Positions 26,440-36,863 of a stretch of 64,000 nucleotides of DNA are shown one piece after another. Both the position numbers and the translations under genes were made by a program. This DNA is from Devosia aurantiaca (GTDB taxonomy: Bacteria > Pseudomonadota > Alphaproteobacteria > Rhizobiales > Devosiaceae): positions 186,001-250,000 of the forward strand of contig NZ_JAALFG010000004.1 in assembly GCF_011058215.1 (NCBI RefSeq), given 5' to 3'. How positions within the stretch are numbered: the first letter of the stretch is position 1; the number at the start of each line of letters is the position of its first letter. Below the pieces are notes generated by a model, which saw nothing but the letters and a program-made list of their open reading frames with translations, did no database searches and was not told where the DNA came from.

Positions 26440-26882
26440 CTAGAGATTGCAGGGGTGGCGCACGCCATCATAGCCAAGGAACGTGTTGGTCCGTACGTCG
26501 TAAGAACGGTAACGCGCCTGGCACGCCGCAACGTTCACATTGCTGCCGCGCGCTGGGCCCACGAGAACGTCCTGGTTCCGATTGTTGTTGCTGTTGGCGA
26601 TAGCGCCACCGACGATTGCACCAAGCGTCAGGCCAAAGAGGGGCCTGCGGCAACGGTGTCGAGGTCGCTACGTCGGTTGTCATAAAAGCGGTTGTACTGG
26701 TTGCGGCTCCAGCGGCCATCGCGGTAGCCGAAACAGTCGGGATCGCGCGGATTGCGGTCGCAATAGGTTTCGACGACACGCACGCGTTCACCGTAATTCA
26801 GCGTCACGACCTGGGCCTGGATGGGCATCATGGTGGCGGCAGTAGCTGCAAGCGCGACGGCGGTAGCAACGAACTTTTTCAT
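26440..26882 (-). CDS. BA14K family secreted protein (frame broken once)
   Basis: About 147 aa restored. Signal peptide MKKFVATAVALAATAATMMPIQA, a Tyr/Arg/Asp-rich middle (YCDRNPRDPDCFGYRDGR), a glycine-zipper-like helix (LFGLTLGAIVGGAIANSN) and the diagnostic C-terminal BA14K repeat ACQARYRSYDVRTNTFLGYD ending RHPCNL. The written frame stops after 'AAGPSLA'; adding one C to the CCCC (GGGG on +, 26640-26643) joins the halves. BA14K was first described as an immunoreactive Brucella protein; lectin-like activity has been proposed. Confidence 0.85.
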
Positions 26883-27019
26883 GGTCGTTTTCCTTTTAGA
26901 TGAGTGCTTGCATGGCCAAATGAAGCCAGACCCTCGCGGTTCCCGCGCCTCAGTTCACAAACAGCTGCAGACCGTCCCAGTTTGCGCTTTCATGCCTCCT
27001 TTTTCTGCGGCATAATGGA

Positions 27020-27098
27020 GCCGTTCGCGCGACTGGCGAGAAGAGATGGGTAACCATCGGGGAACGCGAACCTTGTAGAGCCGCTCGCCTGGGCACCC
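27020..27098 (+). promoter_or_regulatory. ZTP (pfl) riboswitch upstream of glyA
   Basis: Senses ZTP/ZMP (AICAR nucleotide), a signal of 10-formyl-THF shortage, and activates one-carbon genes. Conserved elements seen: P1 arms GTTCGCG (27023-27029) and CGCGAAC (27065-27071), a perfect 7-bp stem; the core GCGACTGGCGA; the P2 hairpin GATGGGTAACCATC; GGGGAACG; and the 3' pseudoknot element CCGCTCGCCTGGGCA. These match the published consensus closely. Immediately downstream come a Shine-Dalgarno sequence (AGGGGAG) and a 34-codon ORF overlapping glyA, a typical ZTP-riboswitch target. Confidence 0.92.
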
Positions 27099-27119
27099 AT
27101 CCGCAACCAGGGGAGCCCC

Positions 27120-27224
27120 ATGCAATTTGCACAGCCCTTACGGCCTTCCAATTTCACGCTGCTGCGTGATAAAGCCACCGCCATGCTCACCGATTTGCTC
27201 GTCCGCGAGGTATCCGACCGATGA
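27120..27224 (+). CDS. 34-aa small ORF between ZTP riboswitch and glyA
   Basis: [20 protein letters not shown]... ending LLVREVSDR. The ATG is preceded by AGGGGAGCCCC, a strong Shine-Dalgarno sequence, while the glyA ATG has only a weak, distant one. The TGA overlaps the glyA start (ATGA), so glyA is probably translated by coupling. The peptide is amphipathic and charged, with no signal or transmembrane segment and no family I know. It may be a coupling leader peptide or a genuine small protein. Too short for routine annotation. Confidence 0.6.
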
Positions 27225-28516
27225 ACGCTCACACATCGTCGCTTTTTCCGCAGTTCTTCTCCAACACGCTTGCCGAGACCGATCCGGAATTGGCCGCAGC
27301 CGTTGGCCAGGAACTTGGTCGCCAGCAGCATGAGATCGAGCTGATCGCGTCCGAGAACATCGTCTCGCGTGCCGTGCTTGAAGCACAGGGCTCGGTGCTG
27401 ACAAACAAGTATGCCGAAGGTTATCCGGGCAAGCGCTACTATGGTGGCTGCGAATATGTCGATGTTGCCGAGACGCTCGCTATCGAGCGCGCCAAGCAGC
27501 TCTTCGGTGTCGGCTTTGCCAATGTGCAGCCCAATTCAGGGTCGCAGGCCAACCAGGGTGTGTATCAGGCGCTGATCCAGCCCGGCGACACAATCCTCGG
27601 CATGTCGCTCGACGCCGGTGGCCACCTCACCCATGGCGCCAAGCCCAATCAGTCCGGCAAGTGGTTCAACGCGATCCAGTATGGCCTGCGCCAGCAGGAC
27701 GGCATGGTCGACATGGATCAGGTGCGCAGCCTGGCCAAGGAACACAAGCCCAAGATGATCGTCGCTGGCTTCTCGGCCTATTCGCGCATCATGGACTGGG
27801 CCGAGTTCCGCGCCATCGCCGATGAAGTTGGTGCCATCCTTTTTGTCGACATGGCCCATGTTGCAGGGCTTGTCGCCGGCGGCGTTTACCCCAGCCCGTT
27901 CCCGCATGCCCACGTCGCCACGACGACCACCCACAAGACGCTGCGCGGTCCGCGCGGCGGCCTGATCCTCACCAACGACGAGGATATCGCCAAGAAGATC
28001 AATTCGGCCATCTTCCCGGGTATTCAGGGCGGACCGCTGATGCACGTCATTGCCGGCAAGGCCGTGGCCTTCAAGGAAGCGCTGACGCCTGAGTTCAAGA
28101 CCTATGCAGCCCAGGTCGTCGCCAATGCCAAGGTGCTGGCCGATACGCTGGTCAAGGGTGGCGTCGATATCGTTTCGGGCGGCACCGACAATCACCTCAT
28201 GCTTGTCGACCTGCGCCCAAAGGGCCTGACCGGCAAGGCGACCGAAAACGCGCTCGGCCGCGCCTTCATCACCTGCAACAAGAACGCCGTTCCCTTCGAT
28301 CCGGAAAAGCCTGCGATTACTTCCGGCATTCGTCTCGGCACCCCGGCAGGCACGACGCGCGGCTTCGGCGAGGCCGAGTTCGAGGAGATCGGCGAGCTCA
28401 TCATTGAAGTGCTCGATGGTCTTAAGGGCAATGGCGACGACAACAACGGTGCCGTCGAAGCAGTGGTTCGTGAAAAGGTGAAGGCGCTGACCGCGCGCTT
28501 CCCGATCTATAGCTAA
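27221..28516 (+). CDS. glyA: Serine hydroxymethyltransferase
   Basis: 431 aa PLP enzyme interconverting serine + THF and glycine + methylene-THF; the main source of one-carbon units. Motifs: [20 protein letters not shown] (~residue 41), [15 protein letters not shown] (~66-80), the PLP-Lys motif [15 protein letters not shown] (Lys ~242) and [17 protein letters not shown] near the C-terminus. Probably expressed under the ZTP riboswitch and coupled to the 34-aa ORF. nrdR follows 9 bases later. Confidence 0.97.
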
Positions 28517-28525
28517 AGGCCACGC

Positions 28526-29003
28526 ATGCGCTGCCCCTATTGCGGCAATGACGACACCCAGGTGAAGGATAGCCGCCCGACCGAAGATCGGGCGCTATCC
28601 GGCGCCGTCGCGTGTGCAATGCCTGTGGGGGCGCTTCACCACGTTCGAGCGCGTGCAATTGCGCGAACTCACCGTGGTCAAGAAGACCGGCCGCAAGGTC
28701 CCGTTCGATCGCGAAAAGCTCGCTCGCTCCGTCAACACCGCCCTGCGCAAGCGCTCGGTGGAGCCGGAGCGGGTGGAACGGATGATCTCGGGCATCGTTC
28801 GGCAACTCGAAAGCCTGGGCGATATCGAGGTCACCTCCGACCAGATCGGCGAATATGTGATGGAAGGCTTGAAAGGTCTCGATGACGTTGCCTTCGTACG
28901 TTTCGCCAGTGTTTACAAGAACTTCTCCGCTGCTGACGACTTCCGCTCGTTTCTGGCCCATCTTGCGGATAACAACAGCCCGATCAGCGGCGACGAGGAC
29001 TGA
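28526..29003 (+). CDS. nrdR: Transcriptional repressor NrdR (frame broken twice)
   Basis: About 159 aa restored. Zinc-ribbon/ATP-cone repressor of ribonucleotide reductase genes. The N-terminal ribbon [20 protein letters not shown] is in one frame. [11 protein letters not shown] is in a second frame and [20 protein letters not shown] onward in a third. One G added at ~28590-28592 (GATCGGGCGC) and one in the GGGGG at 28627-28631 restore the family sequence, including the second zinc Cys pair and the ATP-cone [15 protein letters not shown]. Two independent breaks in 40 bases make this the most damaged small gene here. Lies between glyA and nusB. Confidence 0.93.
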
Positions 29004-36469: not shown

Positions 36470-36566
36470 AGTCGTCCTTTCCGTAACCAGTTTCCTCAGG
36501 GTTACGGGAGACGACGAGCCGAGAAAGCGCTGCCAATAGGCTGCGGCGCCCGGCAAGGCGCTTGAT

Positions 36567-36700
36567 CCCGTTCTCTTTCATCCGGACTATACCGTCGGCT
36601 CCGGAGTCACACCGGATCTGCTGACCTCCCACCGGGAGCGCTCGCGGGCTTGGCATCGCTGCCTTACCGCCGGTGGGGAATTGCACCCCGCCCTGAGAAC
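36567..36700 (-). promoter_or_regulatory. FMN riboswitch (RFN element) controlling ribN
   Basis: Reading the minus strand, the hallmarks appear in order: GTTCTCAGGGCGGGGTG, CCCCACCGGCGGTAAGG, the AGCCCGCGAGCGC junction, ATCCGGTGTGACTCCGGAGC and CCGACGGTATAGTCCGGATG ending in GAGAACG. The first and last blocks pair as P1. About 100 bases separate it from the ribN ATG, room for a terminator or anti-Shine-Dalgarno expression platform. FMN binding should switch the gene off. Confidence 0.96.
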
Positions 36701-36863
36701 ATTGCAGGCCAAGCCTGCGACCGCAAATCTAGTTCAGGGGCGCCCGGTCGGCAAGGGAGCACAAGAGTGTAACTATGCGCCGATTGGGCAACTGCTGGAG
36801 CAAAGCGCTTCCCAAAGATGCCGCACTAAAATACTCAGCCACTGATTACCTTCCGAGACCGCC

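Follow-up and report, generated by a model that had tools for sequence, protein, structure and literature searches.

A small overlapping ORF that may relay a ZTP riboswitch to glyA in Devosia and its allies

In a 64,000-nucleotide stretch of the Devosia aurantiaca genome (contig NZ_JAALFG010000004.1, positions 186,001 to 250,000; hereafter the window, with the leader and glyA on its forward strand), a ZTP riboswitch leads into a 34-codon ORF whose stop codon overlaps the start of glyA, and this arrangement recurs across the Devosiaceae, the family of Hyphomicrobiales to which Devosia belongs. The best explanation, which we consider likely, is a translational ON switch that acts through a relay: the aptamer would gate the small ORF and ribosomes that have read it would reinitiate on glyA. 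Without Z nucleotides, the 3' strand of the P3 helix (GGGC) would pair around the Shine-Dalgarno (SD) sequence of the small ORF and keep ribosomes off. When ZTP/ZMP rises, as in a shortage of 10-formyl-THF, P3 and the pseudoknot would hold GGGC and the small ORF would be translated, its ribosomes terminating in the ATGA overlap and then reinitiating on glyA. The small ORF would act as a bridge of ~100 nt between the riboswitch module and glyA, a bridge that would be needed because the module sits upstream of what appears to be glyA's own promoter (P2, below). Selection on it would bear on openness and on an end at glyA in the right phase, with the peptide sequence left free, and P2 transcripts, which lack the aptamer, would provide riboswitch-independent glyA. 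We also favour, although with less assurance, a wider reading, in which a riboswitch module upstream of an existing promoter is connected to the gene through a bridge ORF that is translated, free in sequence and runs across that promoter; only openness and terminal phase would be kept, riboswitch-gated and riboswitch-free transcripts would coexist, and frames would drift by compensating indels.

The aptamer, its expression platform and the small ORF

The aptamer (27019-27101) matches the Rfam covariance model of the ZMP/ZTP riboswitch (RF01750) over its full length (model positions 1-86; cmscan 65.3 bits vs a gathering score of 39, E 2.5e-8); no other ZTP match in the window reaches that score, and a search of the genome at E <= 0.001 gave this match alone. 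Its helix P1 is a perfect 7 bp (GTTCGCG/CGCGAAC, 27023-27029/27065-27071), the arm CGCCTGGGCA is read at 27086-27095, and the P3 helix/pseudoknot region (27080-27094, from the Rfam alignment and folds) contains the 3' strand GGGC (27091-27094) that is common to the aptamer and to the predicted SD-masking helix. A gene of the expected class (purine/one-carbon) is associated with the aptamer, since glyA lies downstream, and glyA is among the genes listed after the pfl/ZTP motif in its original description (PMC2864571). Altogether, the aptamer of the window is itself ordinary for the ZTP class. The window also carries an FMN riboswitch, on the reverse strand (36566-36704, 125.4 bits).

The small ORF (27120-27224, from the ORF list and the comparison with relatives) starts with an ATG at 27120 led by the SD AGGGGAG (27109-27115), and its TGA (27222-27224) overlaps the glyA ATG at 27221 out of frame (ATGA, 27221-27224). 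The overlapping gene (27221-28516) is a 431-aa ORF to which the glyA pieces of the 69 other aptamer-glyA loci are 73-94% identical (tblastn); we take its product, the downstream target, to be serine hydroxymethyltransferase (SHMT). The original prediction, made from the letters of the window, thus holds in its structural part: it had read a ZTP/pfl aptamer with a perfect P1 and a pseudoknot arm, for which it proposed the covariance search reported here, and it had assigned the first start after the aptamer to a 34-aa ORF with the SD AGGGGAG and a TGA overlapping the glyA ATG.

The expression platform lies between aptamer and ORF (27091-27118). In its predicted fold, GGGC+CCC (27091-27098) pair with GGG (27110-27112) and GCCC (27115-27118), and this GGG sits inside the small-ORF SD. 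Because the masking helix and P3 use the same GGGC, they would be mutually exclusive. When each locus was folded from the P3 3' strand (GGGC) through the small-ORF start, a helix between GGGC and the last bases before the ORF start, with the SD enclosed, was predicted in 70/70 loci in which the aptamer precedes the main glyA, with modest fold z-scores (mean -1.5). The enclosed SD was GGGGAG in 35 loci, GGGAG in 28, GGGAA in 4 and weaker in 3. The predicted helix targets the small-ORF start, not the glyA start.

These loci come from a survey that found the aptamer in 62 of 75 genus genomes (65 matches) and in 82/136 family genomes, with 28 matches outside the genus, 25 of which were taken into the locus comparison. 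Duplicates (L100, which is the same place as L065, and L115, L124-L127 and L131) were dropped, as was L117, whose glyA has an internal stop and no start that could be found. The aptamer precedes the main glyA in 55 loci of the genus and 15 outside it; ten genus matches stand before other genes or are unclassified.

An SD-linked start follows the aptamer in every one of the 70 aptamer-glyA loci (the start being chosen by its SD and not by openness), and the riboswitch-linked ORF stops at +1 of glyA, in exact overlap, in 66 of them. The four exceptions differ in kind: a TAG stop overlaps a GTG start of glyA in L022 (+5, read by hand from the alignment); frame-disrupting changes make the ORF stop 7 nt before glyA in L036 and 25 nt before it in L005; and in L070 (genome G092) the small ORF has no stop and is fused in frame to glyA. 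This fusion is possibly a riboswitch-controlled N-terminal extension of GlyA (33 residues), and it could likewise deliver switch-controlled ribosomes to glyA. The early stops of L036 and L005 count against the relay. The exact stop/start overlap, shared by 66 of the 70 loci, is more than chance. A leader alignment across Devosiaceae had been proposed in the original prediction, with relatives that lack the ORF or disrupt its frame as the evidence to look for against it; the alignment returned the ORF start at every locus and two disrupted frames. Its central idea, that the switch regulates translation of the small ORF and glyA responds by coupling, gains support from these overlaps together with the predicted masking helix.

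Two further observations concern aptamer recognition. In the glyA leader of L065 (genome G027), the aptamer barely reaches the gathering score (39.1 bits) and its 5' half looks replaced, with P3, platform and small ORF retained. Aptamer-like regex matches before glyA in Microvirga (L202) and Sphingosinicella (L225) were discarded as false, being without an Rfam match.

Promoter-like elements and the glyA start

Just 5' of the aptamer lies a distal promoter-like element, P1 (26987-27016), made of CTTTCA (26987-26992) and CATAAT (27011-27016) separated by 18 nt. In sequence logos of 67 leaders it forms two high-information blocks at a fixed distance, at -36..-33 and -17..-8 from the aptamer (CTTTC..N..CATAA; L056, with the same leader as L054, was left out of the logos). 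The switch-bearing transcript probably starts from it.

A second promoter-like element, P2 (27145-27173), lies inside the small ORF. In the window its boxes are CTTCCA (27145-27150) and TGATAA (27167-27172); the close relative G027 also has CTTCCA, but almost every other relative has CTTGGA as the first box. TGNTA stands exactly 22 nt from the first box in 70/70 aptamer loci. Of 24 loci that lack the aptamer, 21 also carry the pair ahead of glyA, with invariant spacing (first box CTTGGA in 17, CATGGA in 4). The second box is GCTANA in 16 of these 21 and mostly GATAA-like in the aptamer loci. The RpoD consensus given for Caulobacter is TTGaCgS and GCtANAWC (PMC8144410), of which the first box shares only TTG. 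Because the pair precedes aptamer-less glyA genes and its second box there resembles the Caulobacter RpoD -10, we infer that P2 is probably glyA's own promoter. An E. coli-type sigma-70 scan, which returned no match at P1 or P2, speaks against this, as do the two results that follow.

Two broader views of P2 were set aside. Searched in strict form, the pattern gave 1 forward match in the window genome vs 2 and 3 for the reversed-pattern control (the window's own CTTCCA being unable to match); it thus does not recur, and P2 is not supported as a motif widespread in this genome. Nor is P2 supported as a general feature of alphaproteobacterial glyA, where it occurred in 4 of the 72 loci surveyed (80 less 8 short ones; for L167, L197 and L218 the 215 nt surveyed were off by 50-110 nt), three of these being Devosia, which leaves 1/69 non-Devosia loci. 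In the window (region 27145-27169) and in G027, a perfect TCACGC/GCGTGA hairpin reaches into the second box. As their first box is CTTCCA and not CTTGGA, our guess is that P2 may be weak in these two genomes and glyA more dependent on the relay.

glyA has an SD of its own inside the small ORF (GCGAGGT, 27205-27211, ending 9 nt before its ATG), so uncoupled initiation is possible, which again counts against the relay. This SD is conserved: GCGAGG in 38 of the 70 loci, another GAGG form in 16, GGGGA/GGGAG-like in 15 and none in 1. The predicted unpaired probability of the glyA ribosome-binding site (RBS) averaged 0.38 and 0.42 in long RNAs vs 0.44 in P2-type RNAs (n = 68; paired P 2e-6 and 0.006); in the window the values were 0.30 and 0.35 vs 0.31. 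These differences are small though consistent, and by prediction the glyA RBS would be only slightly masked in the long RNA, strong masking being unsupported. Masking of the glyA SD by first-box RNA (CCUUG/CGAGG) was considered and set aside, since both sides are fixed for other reasons and their covariation is uninformative.

GlyA itself falls into two classes in genus loci such as L012 and L031, ~75% and ~90% identical to that of the window, with closely similar leaders, which suggests that the coding part was replaced by recombination. The gene after glyA (28526-29003), presumably nrdR-like, is split over two overlapping frames (28526-28885 and 28614-29003) and looks frameshifted, either by gene damage or by sequencing error.

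Phase, openness and the encoded peptide

Three peptide patches of the small ORF recur in the genus, PWNR, RDKA and CEV, and each coincides with a DNA signal: PWNR is encoded by CTTGGAATCGC, RDKA by CGTGATAAAGCC and CEV by the glyA SD. Recurrent patches (PWNR, RDKA, EV) are what a regulatory leader peptide would leave, the nascent peptide or specific codons stalling the ribosome, but outside the genus the same box-pair DNA that gives WNR is read as LES or LGI, depending on the locus, and the patches map onto the two boxes and the glyA SD. In the nine loci with the LES frame, where TGATAA would introduce a stop, the second box is TGCTAC. Furthermore, in the variable segments of the ORF, which exclude the glyA SD and both boxes, substitution rates are roughly equal at the three codon positions (0.226/0.219/0.195, that is 263, 255 and 227 of 1163 sites each, from pairs of the same length class that differ at no more than 35% of these sites, with sequences shared among pairs). 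The leader-peptide reading is very improbable and, on these comparisons, already largely refuted. A function of the peptide is likewise rejected, since relatives read the box pair in three frames and codon positions change about equally; the conserved patches are best read as by-products of the promoter-like box pair and the glyA SD. This pattern suggests that what matters is the reading of the mini-gene and not the peptide it encodes.

The same variable segments keep one frame open. Stops occupy 1/1246 codons in frame 0, against 19/1177 in frame 1 and 12/1225 in frame 2 (31/2402 in frames 1 and 2), a depletion in the ORF frame with a Fisher P of 4e-5, uncorrected for relatedness; the segments counted do not include the frame-0 stops of L036 and L022. 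As stops are rare in frame 0 and codon positions change about equally, the ORF would be translated while its product is free to vary.

Phase across the box pair points the same way. Phase is kept by 11 linker-length classes and lost by 3 (11/14; P = 7e-4 at 1/3 each, a hand count of classes that are not independent). Measured from the first box, the phases of the two starts (small ORF, glyA) are (1,1) in 51 rows, (2,0) in 9 and (0,2) in 5, each pair summing to the phase that gives the ATGA overlap, and these make up 65/69 rows (the identical leader L056 left out); the remaining four are the exceptions L022, L036, L005 and L070. A glyA tree (FastTree, likewise without L056, 20/66 inner branches open) gives 7 changes of the combined phase and 4 of the phase sum, in line with the four single-row exceptions and three sum-keeping changes. 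Among aptamer-less loci, box-to-start distances fall in all three phases.

The ORF could nevertheless be incidental, with P2 and the glyA SD providing most of the expression of glyA, and the ORF open only because the region is short and G+C-rich. P2 and the glyA SD are indeed conserved, and an open frame +2 of at least 95 nt occurs in 17/24 aptamer-less loci (vs 67/70 with the aptamer), which makes openness alone weak evidence. An incidental ORF does not account for stop depletion limited to frame 0 of the variable segments, for phases that compensate across the box pair, or for a platform predicted to open the small-ORF start and not that of glyA, and we regard it as improbable. It is the frame contrast and the phase compensation, both drawn from sequence comparison, that carry the argument for a translated bridge.

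Rho-dependent polarity would also ask for openness only and no peptide. Here translation of the small ORF would shield the leader, Rho otherwise stopping RNA polymerase before glyA, and the ATGA overlap would make this protection continuous into glyA. In its favour, the variable segments of the ORF have much C and little G (C 0.39-0.43, G 0.15-0.18), and no intrinsic-terminator-like site was found in 26880-27400. However, over its full length the ORF (C 0.34, G 0.23) shows no stronger bias than the beginning of glyA (C 0.38, G 0.23), aptamer-less leaders have a similar composition (C 0.39, G 0.20), and Rho alone leaves the exact stop/start overlap unexplained. As the main mechanism we think Rho polarity rather unlikely, although it is a better candidate than an incidental ORF; it can act alongside the relay, so that the chances we give to the two overlap.

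If the relay reading is true, this would be the first relay ORF known to us for the ZTP class and, in the loci sampled, the usual link of the ZTP sensor to the main glyA in Devosia and allies. It suggests that a riboswitch can be added before a gene that already has a promoter, with ribosomes bridging the gap. It also carries a warning, since the conservation of a small-ORF peptide may merely mirror signals in the underlying DNA. Openness without codon-position bias, combined with phase compensation across a fixed element, makes a test that is usable on other riboswitch leaders and on small-protein catalogues.

Comparison with other riboswitch leaders and upstream ORFs

The closest comparison by sensor is with ZTP (pfl) riboswitches joined directly to their genes. 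They share the aptamer family and the masking of the SD by the P3 strand: a similar predicted helix, built of other sequences (for example GGGCGGC/GCCGCCC and GGCAAATC/GATTTGCC), appeared in 38 of 41 hand-picked loci, a count without a shuffled control, and was absent in L146, L153 and L159. Other aptamer loci without the main glyA lie outside the 41, for example L032, L061, L063, L134, L141, L142, L145, L148-L150, L152, L154, L156, L157 and L160-L162. The directly joined riboswitches differ from the glyA leaders in what follows the platform: the first start of a long ORF belongs to the gene, in place of a small ORF, with no relay ORF seen. From their translations, we take the directly joined genes to be folD-, purH- and DJ-1/PfpI-like. 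A class scan also placed an SHMT beside the aptamer at 9 loci; these proteins are 46-49% identical to GlyA (tblastn) and so are paralogues, and the paralogue follows the aptamer directly in 7/9, no start being found in L160 and L161. In another genus of the family (L080, L082-L087), the ZTP riboswitch stands directly before one gene, presumably purH-like.

Short upstream ORFs that gate the next gene are known in bacteria, for example before an Mg2+ transporter gene (PMC8092293) and in a copper-related case (PMC9426467). As in Devosia, a short upstream ORF affects the next gene, but direct control of that ORF by a metabolite aptamer, as proposed for the Devosia relay, is not apparent in the available text of either report. 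For the ZTP class, we found no relay ORF in the open-access literature (subscription papers being outside its scope), and the available text of a 2026 covariation study of whole ZTP switches speaks of no uORF, leader peptide or translational coupling (PMC13273304).

The nearest parallel in working is ppe2 of M. tuberculosis, where, according to the available text of Kipkorir et al. 2024 (PMC11260477), a B12 riboswitch (a class IIb variant and an OFF switch) masks the SD of a short out-of-frame uORF, uPPE2, which ends in an AUGA overlap with PPE2; PPE2 expression requires translation of uPPE2, mostly by termination-reinitiation, and PPE2 has no obvious SD of its own. This shows the same logic experimentally and speaks for the relay in Devosia, where the small-ORF SD likewise lies in the expression platform (predicted fold, 70/70 loci) and the stop overlaps the gene start out of frame (AUGA; the window and 66/70 loci). 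The two differ in that glyA has its own SD (GCGAGGT, 9 nt before the ATG), the missing SD being a trait of ppe2 and not a requirement, and in that the aptamer is of the ZTP class with an ON response expected, as against B12 and OFF. Moreover, uPPE2 is one system, with no internal promoter described in that text, whereas the proposed Devosia relay is conserved in the family and its peptide runs frame-free over a promoter-like element. The original prediction, whose author knew of no such intermediate ORF, thus stands for the ZTP class as far as the open-access literature goes, but not for the relay principle itself, already known from the B12 riboswitch. We would therefore claim a likeness of working to uPPE2 and not membership: a relay of this kind was already on record, and a ZTP version whose sequence-free bridge crosses a promoter would be a new one.
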